A stretch of DNA of 50,138 nucleotides from Desulfuromonadales bacterium (GTDB lineage Bacteria; Desulfobacterota; Desulfuromonadia; Desulfuromonadales; Syntrophotaleaceae): the NCBI GenBank assembly GCA_013619105.1, contig JABXKU010000009.1, positions 1 through 50,138 on the forward strand. Direction: 5' to 3'. Position numbers and translations under genes: made by a program. Of the stretch, positions 5,129 to 43,851 are shown piece after piece. The first letter of the stretch is position 1, and the number at the start of each line of letters is the position of its first letter. The notes beneath the pieces are model-generated. The model was not told the origin of the DNA. It ran no database searches and saw only the letters and a program-made list of their open reading frames with translations.

Positions 5129-6658
5129 TTATAATAGACCGAGTTGAAGACGCAGATAATGGGCCATGGCGTAGAGTGCAACTCCGCTGGCCAGAGCCAT
5201 AATGGCATATCGTTGCCTGGCCGACAGTTGCAAGGGCTTCCAACCGGAGCGCCCTGGAAATTCCCCGATGAACCGGCGTCGAACTTCCAGGGTGGTGAGA
5301 AGAAAAGTCAGCCAGGTCATAGCTAGCAGATAGCCGGCCATGATGTCGCTGAACCAGTGCACGCCTAGATAACAGCGGCTGAGTCCCACCACCAGGGCCA
5401 AGAAACTCAAGAGAATAATCATCAACAGCCGTGATTGCCAGTAGCGTAGGGAGCCGAACAGGTAGTAGGCCAACAGGCCAACAAATAGCAGGGCGGAAAA
5501 GGCATGGCCACTGGGAAAACTGGCGCTGGTTGCCTGTAACTGTGCAAAGAAAGGCTCTGGCCGCAGACGATGGAAAAGGAGCTTGCCCAGCAGTACCAAC
5601 AGCTCGCCGCCGCCCATTCCAACCAGCAAAATCGCTGCGGAGAAATCCCGATTATTGAGAACCAGCCAAAGAAGTAAAAGACCGCAGATAATCAATAAGG
5701 CCGGAAGGTTAGCCAGAGAGGAGGCCAGCAGCATAAGTCGATCGGCCAGGGGATGATGTAGTTGACCTAAAAGGGTATAGATTTTCTGGTCCACACTGGA
5801 TACCAGCTCAAATGAATTCAGCAACCCAAAAAACAACCCGGAAAATAGGCTGCTGCAGGTAAAGCCGCAGGTCAAATAGAGGCCTGAACCCTTTTTTAAA
5901 CTGAAGCGGTCGGCGGCAAAGGTCCATAGGCGTGGGAACCGTTTCGATAGTGCGGTAATTTCTGGACGTTGCAGAAAAGACTGCCAGGAAACGGTCAGGT
6001 GGTGCCACAGAGATTGAGAACGTTTGACTATCCTAGGGAAGAGTTTTTTCCAGAACAGACTGTTGACGATAAATATCACCACCAGGGTGGCAAGTAACAG
6101 ACTGAATTGGCCGGTTAACAGCTGTACCTTCTTCCAGCTGGCCGCGCCGAAATATCCAAGGCCGGGATAGACAATGCCCCAAAGGATGCAACTTAGCAGC
6201 GTGTTGTTAAAAAATGCGCCTGGTCGCATACCTGAGCAGCCTGCTACAAAAGGAATGCTGCCCCGTAGCGGCCCGGCGAAACGGCCTAAAAATAAACTTT
6301 TACCGCCGTGGCTGACAAAAAAAAGTTCAGCTTTTTTGATCAGGCTGCGACGTTTTCGAAAGAGTTTACTATGCAGCAGGCGGGTACCGAAGCGGCTTCC
6401 TAGAACATAGCTGCACATGTCTCCAATTAAGGCCCCGGTAAAGGCAGATATTGCGATGGTAGTCACATCTCCCTTGCCATGAGCCGCCAGAAAGCCGACC
6501 AAAAGAACAAGGGTGCTTCCCGGCACCAATAGTCCTACCAGGACGATCGATTCAAGCAGAGCAATGGTGCCAATAAGCAGATAGTAGAGGCCCCCCCCGG
6601 GCAACAGGGAGACAATGTTTTCTAAAAATAATTGCATAGGGAATTTCGCATCCACCAT
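5129..6658 (-). CDS. DedA-family / PAP2 phosphatase fusion membrane protein
   Basis: A 509-residue membrane protein in two parts. Residues ~10-200 match the DedA/VTT family (LLVPGSTLVLLVGFLAA; GRFAGPLRGSIPFVAG), implicated in lipid carrier flipping. Residues ~265-480 are a type-2 phosphatidic acid phosphatase with all three signature motifs: KLLFHRLRP (359-367), PSGH (382-385) and SRCYLGVHWFSD (427-438), including the catalytic histidines. A plausible role is dephosphorylation plus transbilayer recycling of a polyprenyl or phospholipid phosphate; this is inference. The start at 6658 has no good ribosome site; Met8 (6637) is an alternative. It is a single gene, with lipid-handling neighbours absent. 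Confidence 0.9.
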   Translation of the reverse strand: MVDAKFPMQLFLENIVSLLPGGGLYYLLIGTIALLESIVLVGLLVPGSTLVLLVGFLAAHGKGDVTTIAISAFTGALIGDMCSYVLGSRFGTRLLHSKLFRKRRSLIKKAELFFVSHGGKSLFLGRFAGPLRGSIPFVAGCSGMRPGAFFNNTLLSCILWGIVYPGLGYFGAASWKKVQLLTGQFSLLLATLVVIFIVNSLFWKKLFPRIVKRSQSLWHHLTVSWQSFLQRPEITALSKRFPRLWTFAADRFSLKKGSGLYLTCGFTCSSLFSGLFFGLLNSFELVSSVDQKIYTLLGQLHHPLADRLMLLASSLANLPALLIICGLLLLWLVLNNRDFSAAILLVGMGGGELLVLLGKLLFHRLRPEPFFAQLQATSASFPSGHAFSALLFVGLLAYYLFGSLRYWQSRLLMIILLSFLALVVGLSRCYLGVHWFSDIMAGYLLAMTWLTFLLTTLEVRRRFIGEFPGRSGWKPLQLSARQRYAIMALASGVALYAMAHYLRLQLGLL

Positions 6659-6880: not shown

Positions 6881-9289
6881 GTGAAACAGTATCGGCTCAG
6901 TCCTGAAGAACTGACCTGGCGTTGCGATCCGGCTCAATTTGAATTTAAAACAACCGAAAGGCTTTGTTGTCTCGAAGAAACAATTGGACAGGATCGAGCT
7001 CTTGCTGCCATCGAATTTGGCTTGGGTATCGAAGCAGATGGTTTTAATGTTTTCATCCTCGGTGAAGCCGGAACCGGACGTTCATCGACCATTAGAAAGC
7101 TTCTGGAAAAGCGTTCTTTAAAGGAACCGGTGCCGGATGACTGGTGTTATGTCCACGATTTTGGAGATGGCTCCAGGCCCACGCATGTCCGCTTGCCTGC
7201 TGGAAAAGGCAAAGATTTCCGAAGGGATGTTGATGCTCTGGTGGTGCAGCTCGCTGCGGCCATACCTAAGCTCTTCGAGAGCAAGGAGTACGAACAGACC
7301 AAGAAGCAGATTGCTAGCGAATCTCAGGAACAGAACAAGAAATTCGTGCAGGAGTTGGAAGATCAGGTAAACAAGGAGGGCTTTCTTCTGCAACGGACTG
7401 TGGGTGGGTTGGTGCTTGTGCCGACCAAGGATAAAGAGCCGATTTCCCAAAAAGATTTTGCCGTGCTTGAAGAAGATGAACGTCAGACTATCGAAAAAAC
7501 GGGTACGAAACTACAGGATCAGCTCAATCAAGTCCTGCGTAAAGTCGTTGAATTGGAAAAAGAGATGCGTGCCGCCACATTGAAGATGGAAAAGGATTTG
7601 CTCAGCCAAGCGCTTTGTCACCTATACGAGGGCCTGGCTGAAAAATACCAGAAATATCCCAAAATTTTGGCTCACTTTGAAAATTGCGTAAAAAATATTA
7701 TAGACCGCGTCGATGAATTCCGACCCGCGCAGGGGGCGCAGATGCTTCCCGGGGGCAAAGTGGCCCACCAAGAGCCTTCTTTTGATCGGTATCGAATTAA
7801 CCTGTTTGTCGACAATAGTGACGCCACGGGGGCGCCGGTCGTCTATGAAGCGAATCCTACTTATTTTAATCTTTTTGGGCGCATCGAGCACATTATCACC
7901 TCCGGTACGGCGACGACTAACTTCACCATGGTCAAGTCTGGTGCGCTGCATCGCGCCAATGGTGGCTACTTGATCCTCGATTGCCGCGAGATGTTGATGA
8001 ATCTCTTTTCCTACGAGGCCTTGAAACGCAGCTTGCGTAATGGCGAGGTCAAGATCGAAGATATGGCCGAGCAGTACCGTCTCATTGCTACTGTTTCTCT
8101 CAAGCCAGAGGCCGTTCCTCTGCGCTGTAAGATTATTTTGATTGGTGTTCCTTGGCTCTATTATCTCCTCTATCAACTTGATCCAGATTTCCGAAAATAT
8201 TTTAAGGTTAAGGCGGATTTTGATCGCATGATGGATAACACCTGGGAAAATGTTCAGCAGTACGCCTTGTTTGTGGCGACCAAATGCAAAGAAGAAAATT
8301 TGCTGCCCTTTGCGTCTAGTGGTGTGGCGCGGGTGATAGAGCACGCAGCGCGGCTTATCGATGATAAAAACCGTTTATCCTCGCGATTCATCGATGTTGC
8401 CGACCTGATTCGCGAAGCCGCTTTTTTTGCCAAACGTCATGATGTCGCAACGGTAGAGCGGGAGCATGTTGAGCTGGCCATCGAGTCTAAAGTTTATCGT
8501 TCCAACCGAATTGAAGAACGGGTTCAAGAAATGATCGATGATGGCACCCTGCTGATCGATACCGAAGGGGAGGTCGTTGGGCAGCTCAATGGGCTCTCGG
8601 TCTATATGCTTGGAGATTACTCCTTTGGCCGGCCGACGCGGATAACAGTGCGTACCTTTATGGGGAAGGGTGGGGTGATTAACATAGAGCGCGAAGCGAA
8701 ATTATCCGGTCCTATTTATGACAAGGGGTTACTGATTCTAGTTGGATTTGTCGGAGATCGCTTCGCTCAGGACAAACCTTTGGCTCTGTCTGCCTCCATT
8801 TGCTTTGAGCAGTCCTATGGTGGGGTGGAGGGAGATAGCGCTTCTTCAGCTGAAATCTACGGGTTGCTCTCTGCCCTGTCGGGTCTGCCGCTTAGTCAAG
8901 CCATTGCTGTTACCGGATCGGTCAATCAGCTGGGTCAGGTGCAGGCCATCGGTGGTGTTAACGAAAAAATCGAAGGCTTCTATGTTGTCTGCAAGACCCA
9001 AGGTCTCAATGGAAAGCAGGGGGTAATCATCCCGGCATCTAATGCCAAAAATTTGATGCTGAAAAAGGAAGTGGTCGATGCGGTGGCTGCAGAGCAATTT
9101 CATGTGTGGGCCGTATCGGACATCGACCAGGGGATTGAACTACTAACCGGAGTTCCTGCAGGTGAGCCCCTAGAGGACGGGACTTGGCCGGAGGGGACGG
9201 TGAATTATTTAGTGAACAAGCGCTTGCGGGAGATGGCCGAAGGCATTTTCAAGTTTGGCCGGGAAGAAGGTAAAGAACCCAATAGTTGA
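6881..9289 (+). CDS. Lon-type ATP-dependent protease (AAA_32/LonB-like)
   Basis: A protein of 802 residues with a Walker A-like loop GEAGTGRSS (61-69), a long coiled middle region (~145-250, many Gln, Glu and Lys) inserted in the AAA module, and a C-terminal Lon protease domain. The Ser-Lys dyad is intact: Ser653 in GDSASSAEIYG and Lys696 in GGVNEKIEGF, 43 residues apart as in E. coli Lon. The N-terminal substrate-binding domain of classical LonA is absent and there are no membrane helices, so this belongs to the bacterial LonB-like/AAA_32 group of cytoplasmic proteases with poorly known substrates. The start is GTG 6881, behind AAGGGGG. The stop codon forms the edge of a 150 bp repeat. Confidence 0.9.
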   Translation: MKQYRLSPEELTWRCDPAQFEFKTTERLCCLEETIGQDRALAAIEFGLGIEADGFNVFILGEAGTGRSSTIRKLLEKRSLKEPVPDDWCYVHDFGDGSRPTHVRLPAGKGKDFRRDVDALVVQLAAAIPKLFESKEYEQTKKQIASESQEQNKKFVQELEDQVNKEGFLLQRTVGGLVLVPTKDKEPISQKDFAVLEEDERQTIEKTGTKLQDQLNQVLRKVVELEKEMRAATLKMEKDLLSQALCHLYEGLAEKYQKYPKILAHFENCVKNIIDRVDEFRPAQGAQMLPGGKVAHQEPSFDRYRINLFVDNSDATGAPVVYEANPTYFNLFGRIEHIITSGTATTNFTMVKSGALHRANGGYLILDCREMLMNLFSYEALKRSLRNGEVKIEDMAEQYRLIATVSLKPEAVPLRCKIILIGVPWLYYLLYQLDPDFRKYFKVKADFDRMMDNTWENVQQYALFVATKCKEENLLPFASSGVARVIEHAARLIDDKNRLSSRFIDVADLIREAAFFAKRHDVATVEREHVELAIESKVYRSNRIEERVQEMIDDGTLLIDTEGEVVGQLNGLSVYMLGDYSFGRPTRITVRTFMGKGGVINIEREAKLSGPIYDKGLLILVGFVGDRFAQDKPLALSASICFEQSYGGVEGDSASSAEIYGLLSALSGLPLSQAIAVTGSVNQLGQVQAIGGVNEKIEGFYVVCKTQGLNGKQGVIIPASNAKNLMLKKEVVDAVAAEQFHVWAVSDIDQGIELLTGVPAGEPLEDGTWPEGTVNYLVNKRLREMAEGIFKFGREEGKEPNS

Positions 9290-9440
9290 CGGCGTCGCTA
9301 AAAGTTCGCCCTAGGGCGTTAGGTTGTTTTTTCAGGCCCTCGACATACTGGCTGTTTGCCCGGAACCCCTGAAAAAACACCAGGCCTTGTAAAACGAAAT
9401 CTTTGCTTAGCCATCCCATATGTTTTTGCAAATGCATTAA
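9286..9440. repeat. Dispersed palindromic repeat, copy A
   Basis: This stretch aligns along its full length with 42542-42695. Shared blocks include GGCGTCG, CGCCCTA, GTTTTTTCAGG, CTCGACATACT, CCTGAAAAAACACCA, GCCTTGTA, TTTGCTTAGCCATCC and AATGCAT. The inner arms GTTTTTTCAGG (9326-9336) and CCTGAAAAAAC (9368-9378) are exact complements, and the outer parts are imperfectly complementary, so the whole unit folds as one long hairpin. It begins on the stop codon of the Lon-type gene. No coding capacity is seen. Confidence 0.85.
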
Positions 9441-9471
9441 TAGTTGAACAAATAACGGACTATATCTGGTC

Positions 9472-9504
9472 AAAGGTCGCTTCGAAATGAAGCGACCTTT
9501 TTTT
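9472..9504 (+). terminator. Intrinsic terminator after the Lon-type gene and repeat A
   Basis: A 12 bp perfect stem, AAAGGTCGCTTC (9472-9483) with GAAGCGACCTTT (9489-9500), around a GAAAT loop, followed by four more T. Confidence 0.9.
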
Positions 9505-9578
9505 GTGCCGGAAAGTCCGGTTGAACCAGGTTGATGATTGTTTTTCAGGCGACGGGGTGCCTAAGCGCAAGTGTTTCG

Positions 9579-9595
9579 TGCACTTATTTTGGGCA
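9579..9595 (+). promoter_or_regulatory. Putative NtrC binding site
   Basis: TGCACTTATTTTGGGCA resembles the NtrC consensus dyad TGCAC-N7-GTGCA with a single mismatch in the right half. It lies about 70 bases upstream of the sigma-54 promoter, a normal enhancer distance. The call rests on motif similarity plus the nitrogen-regulated genes downstream. Confidence 0.6.
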
Positions 9596-9646
9596 TAAAT
9601 TATCCATCGATGTCGTAAGTCCTTGAAATAAAACAATAAATTATTT

Positions 9647-9662
9647 TGGCATGTGCGATGCA
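9647..9662 (+). promoter_or_regulatory. Sigma-54 promoter of the PII-amtB-porin operon
   Basis: TGGCATGTGCGATGCA keeps the invariant GG (-24) and GC (-12) separated by 10 bases, against the consensus TGGCACG-N4-TTGCA. Transcription would start near 9673, giving a leader of about 135 bases before the PII start codon at 9807. Confidence 0.75.
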
Positions 9663-9788
9663 AACTTTCTTGTACAAGATTCAAAATATTGGTCTGCCTC
9701 CGGTTACAGTTTCTCTGGCCAGACAGAGCGCTTGACCATGGGTGTCAATCGACGAGCTTAACCGAGCGGTGACTGCCGGAGGCCATAA

Positions 9789-10145
<357 letters not shown>

Positions 10146-42282: not shown

Positions 42283-42516
42283 TCAGGTGCTCAATAGCCC
42301 CTTGAGTTCCTTGACGGAAGGAGCCTTCCCCGACAGTTTGACCTGCCCGTCTATGGCCAGGGCCGGAGTCATGAGAACCCCGAAAGCGGTGATCTCCTGG
42401 ATGTCAGTCACTTTAACCAACTCATATTCCAAGTGCAACTCCTGGGCGGCAGTTTCGGCGTTTTTGGCCAGTTTCTTACATTTTGCGCAGCCGGTTCCCA
42501 AAATCTGAATTTTCAT
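42283..42516 (-). CDS. Small thioredoxin-like redox protein (CxxC)
   Basis: A 77-residue thioredoxin_3-type protein (redox-active disulfide family). It starts MKIQILGTGCAKCKKLAKN with a CAKC active site, and has the cis-proline element LMTPALAIDG (~50) and a C-terminal helix. It is cytoplasmic, without signal peptide. Related proteins accompany permeases and ars genes, and it may be the ArsE-like partner that supplies electrons; that naming is inference. GAGGAG precedes ATG 42516. It lies 28 bases before the ArsF-like gene. Confidence 0.82.
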   Translation of the reverse strand: MKIQILGTGCAKCKKLAKNAETAAQELHLEYELVKVTDIQEITAFGVLMTPALAIDGQVKLSGKAPSVKELKGLLST

Positions 42517-42541
42517 AATAAGCTCCTCGTTGATTCAAATA

Positions 42542-42695
42542 ATGATGGCGTCGTAAAAAATCCGCCCTACTGCGTTACGGCGTTTTTTCAGGATCTCGAC
42601 ATACTAGACGTATGCCTTCACTCCTGAAAAAACACCAAGCCTTGTAGAACGAAATTTTTGCTTAGCCATCCTTTAAGTTTTTGAGAATGCATCAA
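42542..42695. repeat. Dispersed palindromic repeat, copy B
   Basis: This is the second copy of the 150 bp element at 9286-9440, with the same inner arms GTTTTTTCAGG (42582-42592) and CCTGAAAAAAC (42623-42633). The outer halves GATGGC...TAAAAAAT and the complement of ATTTTTGCTTAGCCATC also pair. It fills the gap between the ArsP-type permease and the CxxC protein, and its right end forms the permease stop codon. Transcribed within the operon it would make a long RNA hairpin. Confidence 0.85.
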
Positions 42696-43765
42696 ATAAT
42701 AAGGTTAAACAGATATCCGACGAGCAGAATGCCGGCACCGACCACGGCGATAAAGGTAGCGATCAGCCGCGGCTTGAGTACCTTGCGCAGAATCACCATC
42801 TCCGGAAAGGAGAGGGCGATGACGCTCATCATAAAAGCCAGCACGGTGCCCAATGCGGCCCCCTTGCCGAGCAGCGCTTCCACCACCGGAATGATGCCGG
42901 CGGCGTTGGTATACATGGGGATGCCAATCAGCACCGAGACCGGTACCGACCACCAGGCGCTCTTGCCCATGATGCTGGCCATGAAATTTTCTGGCACAAA
43001 GCCGTGGATGGCCGCTCCGATCAGAATGCCGATGACCACGTAGAGCCAGACCCTGCCGACAATATCCCGCACCGCTTCGATGCCGAACCGAACCCGGTCT
43101 TCCCAGGATTGGCGGTTGTCGGGCATGGCTGCCTGATTGACCTGCATCTCCCGCACCCAGTCTTCCACATAGTTCTCGAGTTTCATACGGCCGATGGTCC
43201 AACCGGCTATCGTAGCAATGAGTATCCCGGTGACAAAGTACAGGGCGGCGATTTTCCAGCCCAACAGGCCGAACAGCAGCACCAGGGCAATTTCATTGAC
43301 CATTGGGGCCGAGATGAGGAAGGAAAAGGTGATGCCCAGGGGGATGCCGGCGGTAACAAAGCCGATAAACAAGGGCACCGCTGAGCAGGAACAAAAGGGC
43401 GTCACCACTCCGAGCAGGGCGGCCAGCACATTGCCGGTACTTTCCCGGCGACCGGCCAGGATTTGCCGGGTCAACTCAGGGGTAATGAAGCTGCGTAATA
43501 CGCCGACGCCAAATACCACCAGTATCAGCAGCATCAAGACCTTGGGGGTATCGTAGAGAAAGAATTCCACCGCCGAGCCCAGGTGGGATTCCAGCTGCAG
43601 GCCGATGAGATCGTAGCTGAGAAACCGCGCCAGAGGCAGCAGCTGCCGATAGAGCAGGAACCAGACGATCAGAAATAGTCCAATTTTCACGCCAAGATGC
43701 TTGCTGAGAAAATTTCTCTGGGCTGTCCCTTCCGTGGTCATATCTTCATCCGTTTGATGATCCAT
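42692..43765 (-). CDS. arsP: ArsP-type permease (organoarsenical efflux)
   Basis: A 357-residue membrane permease of the ArsP_1 family, with about eight helices. The signature TPFCSCSAVPLFIGFVTAGIPLG (~130-152) holds the closely spaced cysteines of this family, and SWWSVPVSVLIGIPMYTNAAGIIPV (~265-290) is the second characteristic segment. Characterised ArsP proteins export trivalent methyl and aromatic arsenicals, not arsenite. ATG 43765, eight bases after GGAG, is chosen rather than the open GTG at 43840. Its stop codon is supplied by the edge of repeat copy B. The gene symbol rests on family and context. Confidence 0.78.
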   Translation of the reverse strand: MDHQTDEDMTTEGTAQRNFLSKHLGVKIGLFLIVWFLLYRQLLPLARFLSYDLIGLQLESHLGSAVEFFLYDTPKVLMLLILVVFGVGVLRSFITPELTRQILAGRRESTGNVLAALLGVVTPFCSCSAVPLFIGFVTAGIPLGITFSFLISAPMVNEIALVLLFGLLGWKIAALYFVTGILIATIAGWTIGRMKLENYVEDWVREMQVNQAAMPDNRQSWEDRVRFGIEAVRDIVGRVWLYVVIGILIGAAIHGFVPENFMASIMGKSAWWSVPVSVLIGIPMYTNAAGIIPVVEALLGKGAALGTVLAFMMSVIALSFPEMVILRKVLKPRLIATFIAVVGAGILLVGYLFNLII

Positions 43766-43851
43766 TGAACGTACTCCGTCAGGCATAAATCGTTTAAGAC
43801 TGTAAACCAGCCTAAGGTAATCGGAGGCGAGTCTCGTCACCGGTAACCGTC

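Follow-up and report, generated by a model that had tools for sequence, protein, structure and literature searches.

A short palindromic MITE-like element of Desulfobacterota that enters stop codons and rebuilds them

We analysed a 50,138-nucleotide stretch (the window) of contig JABXKU010000009.1 from the Desulfuromonadales bacterium assembly GCA_013619105.1, which carries two copies of a non-coding element resembling a miniature inverted-repeat transposable element (MITE). The first-pass annotation, made from the letters alone, had described two copies 33 kb apart with exact inner arms and an imperfect outer stem and no encoded protein. All of these features were confirmed in both copies, and alignment placed the same element twice in the window at a distance of 33,255 bp. 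The element has no gene of its own, and its imperfect palindrome measures 127 bp. Its borders in the window were set by the flanking target-site duplications. Copy A (151 bp, 9288..9438, + strand) lies one base into the stop codon of a lon-like gene (6881-9289) with Lon-type domains according to Pfam, between two identical copies (7/7) of AATAGTT at 9281..9287 and 9439..9445 (+ strand). A degenerate form of the left terminal motif GATGGCGTCGCAAAAAGTC, the motif being derived from alignments of 40 and 50 copies, occupies 9288..9306 (+ strand), and the imperfect-palindrome core, whose conserved pairing is on the minus strand, spans 9288..9415. Copy B (150 bp, 42544..42693, + strand) is flanked by AAATAAT at 42537..42543 and 42694..42700 (+ strand) and lies between an ArsP-like permease gene (42692-43840, minus strand), which adjoins its right end, and a small gene (42283-42516, minus strand) whose putative thioredoxin-like product is named from its CxxC sequence, with no database match behind the name. 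The core of copy B (42544..42670) is likewise folded on the minus strand and was matched by a covariance model, a match that is not independent because copy B was included in building the model.

The element is abundant in the window's genome (hereafter G000; 3.32 Mb in 205 contigs). From 63 first-look candidates, 40 copies were obtained at E<=8e-20, and a 20-nt left-end pattern with up to three mismatches matched 60 times, compared with 0 for a reversed control. Fifty copies spanning at least 120 model positions could be aligned (mean column identity 80%). When the 40 copies were aligned with their flanks, the borders were sharp: the left end read GATGGCGTCGCAAAAAGTC, and the right end, read inwards, was GATGCATTCGCAAAAACTT with a second motif, GATGGCTAAGCAAAAA, directly inside. 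In many relatives GATGnnnTCGYAAAAAGTC, i.e. GATGnnnTCG(C/T)AAAAAGTC, stands at both outer ends, and the right side carries this outer terminal motif together with an inner GATGGCTAAG(C/T)AAAAA. Terminal inverted repeats are therefore present in many relatives; they are imperfect in the window's lineage. The C/T position of the end motif co-varies across the arms, being C-G in 21, T-A in 20 and unpaired in 5 of 46 sequences.

For the target site we used 105 element stretches, 55 from G000 loci and 50 from loci of a complete relative, G003. Of these, 78 reach the right end; as some sites are common to the two genomes, these counts are not fully independent. A clear target duplication (at least 5/6 or at least 6/7 matching) was found in 41 of the 78; in 500 shuffles with re-optimised borders the number averaged 5.6 and never exceeded 14. 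The duplication was 6 bp long in 26 of the clear cases and 7 bp in 15. Among the 26 clear copies that lie away from stop codons, the consensus was AnnnnT^RR: the duplication ended with T in 21, and a purine followed at +1 in 23 and at +2 in 22.

This target bears directly on the position of the copies at gene ends. The element goes one base inside an existing stop codon (T^GA, T^AA or T^AG), and its own GA rebuilds TGA. At copy A, the T that ends the target duplication and the GA that begins the element together form TGA, while the original lon TGA is still readable at 9445-9447, consisting of the final T of the right-hand duplication and 9446-9447 after it. The lon-like genes of G003 and G004, which have no insertion there, end in a TGA of their own. 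Across G000 and G003, a same-direction gene ended exactly at the left-end T|GA in 19 of 78 copies, and an opposed gene ended at the right end in 3 (p = 0.0009). After the flanks were joined, 14 of the 19 left-end cases kept TGA, TAG or TAA at the identical codon, although the duplication is unclear in several of the 14, whose joined site is a guess; in the remaining five the next in-frame stop lay 6 to 1,398 nt further. Where the left-end stop case had a clear duplication, the stop was kept at the same codon in 11 of 12. In the phylum-wide set, 25 of 137 elements lay exactly at T|GA, or 24 of 136 once L340, which comes from the window's genome, is set aside. Ten elements shared the second most frequent offset, 7 nt upstream, and no other offset had more than 3.

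Stop codons are T-R-R and the element begins with GA, so that a copy entering after the first base of a stop does not alter the protein. The preference for gene ends is largely explained by the T^RR target. Survival bias alone as the source of stop-codon insertion is weakened, since clear copies away from stops prefer T^RR too. The first-pass annotation had proposed that each copy abuts a gene end and supplies the stop of that gene. The first part held; the second did not, as the element replaces two bases of an existing stop, and at copy B the stop is found at the right end and belongs to the ArsP-like gene, which points the opposite way. Its further suggestion, that the element lands at gene ends, applies to a sizeable minority of copies (22/78 in the two genomes and 25/137 phylum-wide). 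Such insertion can turn TAA or TAG stops into TGA, and it offers a mobile element a simple route to persist harmlessly.

Orthologous sites were then compared. The lon stop is occupied in G000, G001 and G002 and is without the element in the other 17 loci compared (G003, G004 and 15 more), among which L298 has Ns at the gene end; the G001 contig stops 31 nt into the element. G004 has a separate, opposed copy ~70 bp beyond its lon stop. At a second site, the element is present in G000 and G002 and absent from G003. The orthologous flanks are too diverged for base-by-base confirmation of a single target copy. The orthologous lon loci without the element show that it is an insertion of a MITE-like kind, and the corresponding proposal of the first-pass annotation is supported by the terminal motifs, the target duplications and these loci together.

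Several copies depart from the common form. Elements L072, L097, L143, L149 and L083 (L numbers denote loci) have the same ends around an unrelated palindromic filling, of the CGTCATTCCCGC...GCGGGAATCCAG or the CTTCGACAAGCTC...GAGCCTGGCGAAGG type; several fillings behind one end type would be expected if one enzyme recognises the ends alone. Three tandem copies occur at L214:2393-2849 in G003, where the orthologous L039:991-1137 of G000 has one copy, and tandem pairs are also found in L228 and L237. At L041:2222-2290 and L291 (the lon site of G002), the hairpin apex contains GTGTCCATC(C/T)GGAAAC, perhaps the end of another insertion element, and in G002 the arms flanking this stretch form a perfect inverted repeat. 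An insert of ~26 nt (CAGGTAAGCGAG...GAGACTCCG), found in both orientations, lies within the palindrome of L082, L084, L098 and L130, and the copy at L042:2102-2418 is interrupted by ~155 bp with the borders TACCCTG...CAGGGTA, perhaps another MITE. Elsewhere in the window, positions 1-162 recur at 1510-1671 with 90% identity, a direct repeat of 162 bp that perhaps belongs to a tandem gene duplication.

We next consider the fold. Copy A folded no better than its shuffles on the top strand (z -0.91) and better on the bottom strand (z -3.19). A bottom-strand structure of 41 pairs had 91.2% of its cells paired across 46 sequences drawn from many genomes, and the stem is retained among relatives despite quite different letters. 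Sliding the partners by one column lowered pairing to 34-36%, and by one to three columns to 34-44%, a comparison that favours the 41-pair structure because that alignment also contributed to deriving it. Cells in which both partners had changed numbered 194 compared with 65.3 in shuffles, none of 500 of which was as high, in a test that is inflated by relatedness. The 41-pair structure was chosen with G.U allowed, and the unbiased test is therefore the wobble count from a wobble-blind self-alignment. On the top strand of 59 diverse elements, A.C mismatches numbered 220 and G.T mismatches 85, where arm composition predicts a ratio of about 1:1; 47 elements leaned this way, 4 the opposite way and 8 were tied. 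Since A.C on the top strand is G.U on the bottom strand, the bottom strand is apparently the one selected for folding; it folded better in 58 of the 59 elements. RNAalifold gave -0.35 kcal/mol with almost no consensus for the top strand of the 50 own-genome copies and -22.83 kcal/mol for the bottom strand of a different, more diverse set of 46 sequences. Because the two sets differ in sequence, the evidence for a strand contrast comes instead from the folding of copy A, the self-alignment and the composition.

A folded single strand, either RNA or single-stranded DNA, thus appears to be selected, given the strong compensatory change in the palindrome throughout the phylum and wobble pairs found mainly on the bottom strand. 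The first-pass annotation had offered an RNA hairpin as one description and had named the existence of only two copies, or base changes that do not preserve the stem, as evidence to the contrary. Neither was observed. Its hairpin stands, with compensatory changes on the bottom strand; its RNA nature is one of two options, as single-stranded DNA would fit too.

The strong compensatory evolution, together with the frequent position just after stop codons, could also suggest a structured RNA or 3'-end element that benefits the host (a terminator, mRNA stabiliser or small RNA) and was dispersed for regulation. However, the best-folding strand is antisense to the gene at the left end, and the same locus is occupied or not depending on the species. 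No promoter-like site was found in 9200-9900 with a simple consensus, and no Rfam match reached the gathering score in the window; seven related loci gave only two matches, both weak, below the gathering score and at chance level. Moreover, lon has a terminator-like hairpin of its own 3' of the element, with a T run, at 9472..9504 (+ strand). G003 and G004, whose lon stop is free of the element, share this hairpin downstream of lon. This terminator call rests on conservation, because the one site found compares with a mean of 0.9 in shuffles. The element as terminator at copy A was therefore rejected, and we regard a host-regulatory origin as very unlikely.

Copies were further examined for orientation relative to replication. 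In G003, dnaA lies at 2.2665 Mb, and the GC skew flips sign there and near 0.65 Mb across 20 sampled stretches, one of which (0.96 Mb) contradicts the pattern. Of 23 exact matches of the left-end pattern, 22 followed the leading strand, as did 65 of 76 matches with up to three mismatches, the latter set including three tandem copies and perhaps chance matches (5 in the reversed control). Of 46 elements in 40 fetched stretches, 40 were oriented with replication. This held for 20/22 elements where both flanking genes run with replication, for 16/17 where the flanking genes differ, and for only 4/7 where both run against it. In G000, neighbouring copies on the same contig agreed in orientation in 18 of 20 pairs (p = 0.0003; right-end match C13:21998 included), and orientation matched the local GC skew in 42 of 55 copies, a count based on short stretches and confounded by gene direction. 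The window has positive skew, and copies A and B are both on the + strand. Other genera gave no significant bias, either in neighbour pairs (19/32 in G008 and 8/14 in G023, right-end match C10:290479 included) or by local GC skew in other genomes (57/105 loci; 53/87 at stronger skew, p = 0.053). Leading-strand orientation is thus established in one genus, the window's, where it may reflect replication-coupled insertion.

These data bear on the idea that the bottom-strand fold, as RNA or single-stranded DNA, is needed for the element's own transposition at replication forks, with target duplication. The bottom-strand wobble and compensatory pairs are consistent with it, as is the orientation in G003 where flanking genes differ, which gene direction does not explain. 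It is weakened by the elements whose flanking genes both oppose replication, by the non-significant bias in G008, G023 and the 105 loci of other genomes, and by the lack of any enzyme among the loci searched. We consider this idea rather unlikely. Equally doubtful is its extension to a phylum-wide class that is neither a classical DDE MITE nor of the IS200/605/REPIN type and for which T^RR stops would be safe havens. If the one-strand fold and the leading-strand orientation are tied to mobility, they would point to an unrecognised transposition route.

A hairpin conserved on one strand and replication-oriented copies in the window's genus would likewise suit an element of the REPIN/RAYT or IS200/IS605 type, in which a Y1 (HUH) transposase recognises a hairpin on one strand and moves single-stranded DNA. 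Y1 genes were present in 9/9 copy-rich genomes, which carries little weight as copy-free genomes were not checked. Y1 transposases, however, are not known to make target duplications or similar motifs at both ends; the element has both, its duplications being 6-7 bp long and its two terminal motifs alike. Furthermore, it was within about 1.5 kb of none of the 30 Y1 loci fetched from 55 matches. We consider movement by a Y1 transposase unlikely.

The element extends well beyond the window's genome. BLAST with one copy gave a match in 24 of the 40 nearest genomes, own genome included. The covariance model (E<=0.001) matched in 140 of 395 genomes sampled from the phylum (Desulfobacterota, judging by record titles) and in 93 of 246 genera, own genome included. 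Some of the weakest matches, from a search run without a shuffled control, could represent other palindromes. Since scoring was limited to the 8 top candidates of each genome, the copy numbers are minimum values. Named genome records contained the exact left end in at least 117 stretches. Among the 80 titles listed, most were Desulfobacterales, Desulfobulbales, Desulfuromonadales, their families or 'Deltaproteobacteria', and a few were Proteobacteria/Pseudomonadota or 'Bacterium'; there were also two cyanobacteria (L117, L139) and one Chloroflexi bin (L134). The cyanobacterial matches have no second end and look coincidental, and L134 has the look of a genuine short element that was perhaps misbinned. 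Plasmid and phage collections gave no element match. On an IMG/VR contig (L370:2332), a copy lies at the stop of a phage tail-tube gene, and a phage could ferry the element between species. In genome G295, contigs C12, C16, C17 and C27 have equal-scoring copies at their ends, which hints at near-identical copies and a recent burst.

Taken together, we consider it probable that this is a non-autonomous MITE-like element of ~150 bp, moved by a trans-acting enzyme into a T^RR target, with stop rebuilding and a bottom-strand hairpin. The enzyme would bind the GATGnnnTCG(C/T)AAAAAGTC ends (the left one, and on the right the outer one plus the inner GATGGCTAAG(C/T)AAAAA) and put the element into AnnnnT^RR, duplicating 6-7 bp. 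On entry one base inside a stop, the leading GA would remake TGA with the protein unaltered, and the element body would be maintained as an imperfect hairpin with the bottom strand as the functional fold. Such an enzyme would be a cut- or copy-and-paste transposase, and the folded strand may serve mobility rather than host regulation.

Several observations weigh against this MITE-like interpretation. A clear duplication is absent in 37 of the 78 copies. The G003 site of copy B (L196, about 6140-6170) is without the element and yet has a right-end-like stretch, perhaps a deletion remnant, so that it is not cleanly empty. As for the fold, pairs with a change on both sides numbered 21 compared with 17.8 in shuffles, 24 of 500 being as high, which is weak, and related sequences can beat every shuffle without any structure. 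A partner transposase was sought with PF01609 (DDE_Tnp_1), PF01797 and PF00665 in nine copy-rich genomes, and the fetched loci scanned comprised 11/11 PF01609, 30/55 Y1 and 30/38 rve matches. PF01609 had no match in G000 or G003 despite their many copies. The Y1 and rve loci scanned contained no element-model match and no end pair; one Y1 locus (L285) had a lone 16-nt end with 1 mismatch. Among 22 end pairs spaced 0.6-4.1 kb apart, 14 segments were listed for open reading frames, and a Pfam scan of 10 such frames found no transposase; the genes between the end pairs in L145, L038, L115, L097 and L180 look ordinary from their translations. No autonomous partner was therefore found among the PF01609, Y1 and rve loci; IS256, IS66, ISL3, IS982, IS1595, IS1 and IS110 were not searched.

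Compared with known systems, the element has the features of a MITE: it is short, non-coding and multicopy, with terminal inverted repeats, a duplication of set length and an orthologous site without the element. REPINs with RAYT and the IS200/IS605 group include short non-autonomous palindromic elements with strand-specific hairpins, and IS200/IS605 insertion is replication-oriented. REPIN/RAYT elements are not known to make a target duplication, and none of the 30 Y1 loci was flanked by copies of the present element, which does have duplications. IS200/IS605 derivatives have single-strand hairpin ends and are not known to have terminal inverted repeats or a target duplication; the element differs from them by its terminal motif at both ends and its duplications. 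The enterobacterial ERIC sequence, carried by E. coli genomes, is a dispersed, intergenic, imperfect palindrome of about 127 bp. The element is like ERIC in palindrome length, dispersal and intergenic sites, the consensus not having been compared directly, but a search of 20,395 E. coli records (E<=1e-3) failed to find it.

QMITE2 of Coxiella burnetii is about 190 bp long, with 7-9 bp direct repeats, 23-29 bp terminal repeats and a foldable transcript (PMC10969869). Its host is unrelated, and the available part of that review describes no covariation, replication orientation or stop-codon target. Closer relatives of the host also carry such sequences. Chunjie, a MITE of Geobacter uraniireducens (Chen et al. 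2008), is 178-235 bp long with terminal and direct repeats and has 37 further copies in intergenic regions; its cited title has it entering an operon with the structure undisturbed, and the review text has it disrupting one copy (PMC10969869). In the portions available, Chunjie is like the element in being a MITE of related bacteria with terminal and direct repeats and intergenic copies, and it differs in length from the ~150 bp found here, a comparison made by description only. Multicopy sequences and 'predicted short RNA elements' have been reported in Geobacter metallireducens, G. bemidjiensis and Pelobacter carbinolicus (PMC2700814, PMC2996986, PMC3543383). As far as the accessible text goes, these families are also dispersed, partly palindromic and intergenic in related genomes, again compared by description only (PMC2700814, PMC2996986, PMC3543383). 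One family, with 24 members in G. metallireducens, contains the palindrome GRCGTAGCGCTGCTACGCC at its centre, which resembles the apex of some relatives of the element. Unlike the present case, that text contains no analysis of target duplication, strand or stop codons. More widely, the literature at hand, mostly titles and abstract openings, describes no element of this kind as inserting at stop codons, covarying on one strand or being oriented with replication.

The MITE as a kind is thus already known, and the element may have relatives among Chunjie and the palindromic multicopy families of Geobacteraceae, the latter perhaps being previous records of it. It provides a defined, testable family that may explain some of the 'multicopy sequences' of sulfur- and metal-metabolising bacteria. 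Set beside Chunjie and the Geobacteraceae families by description only, the element family appears to be a new, unusually structured MITE superfamily.

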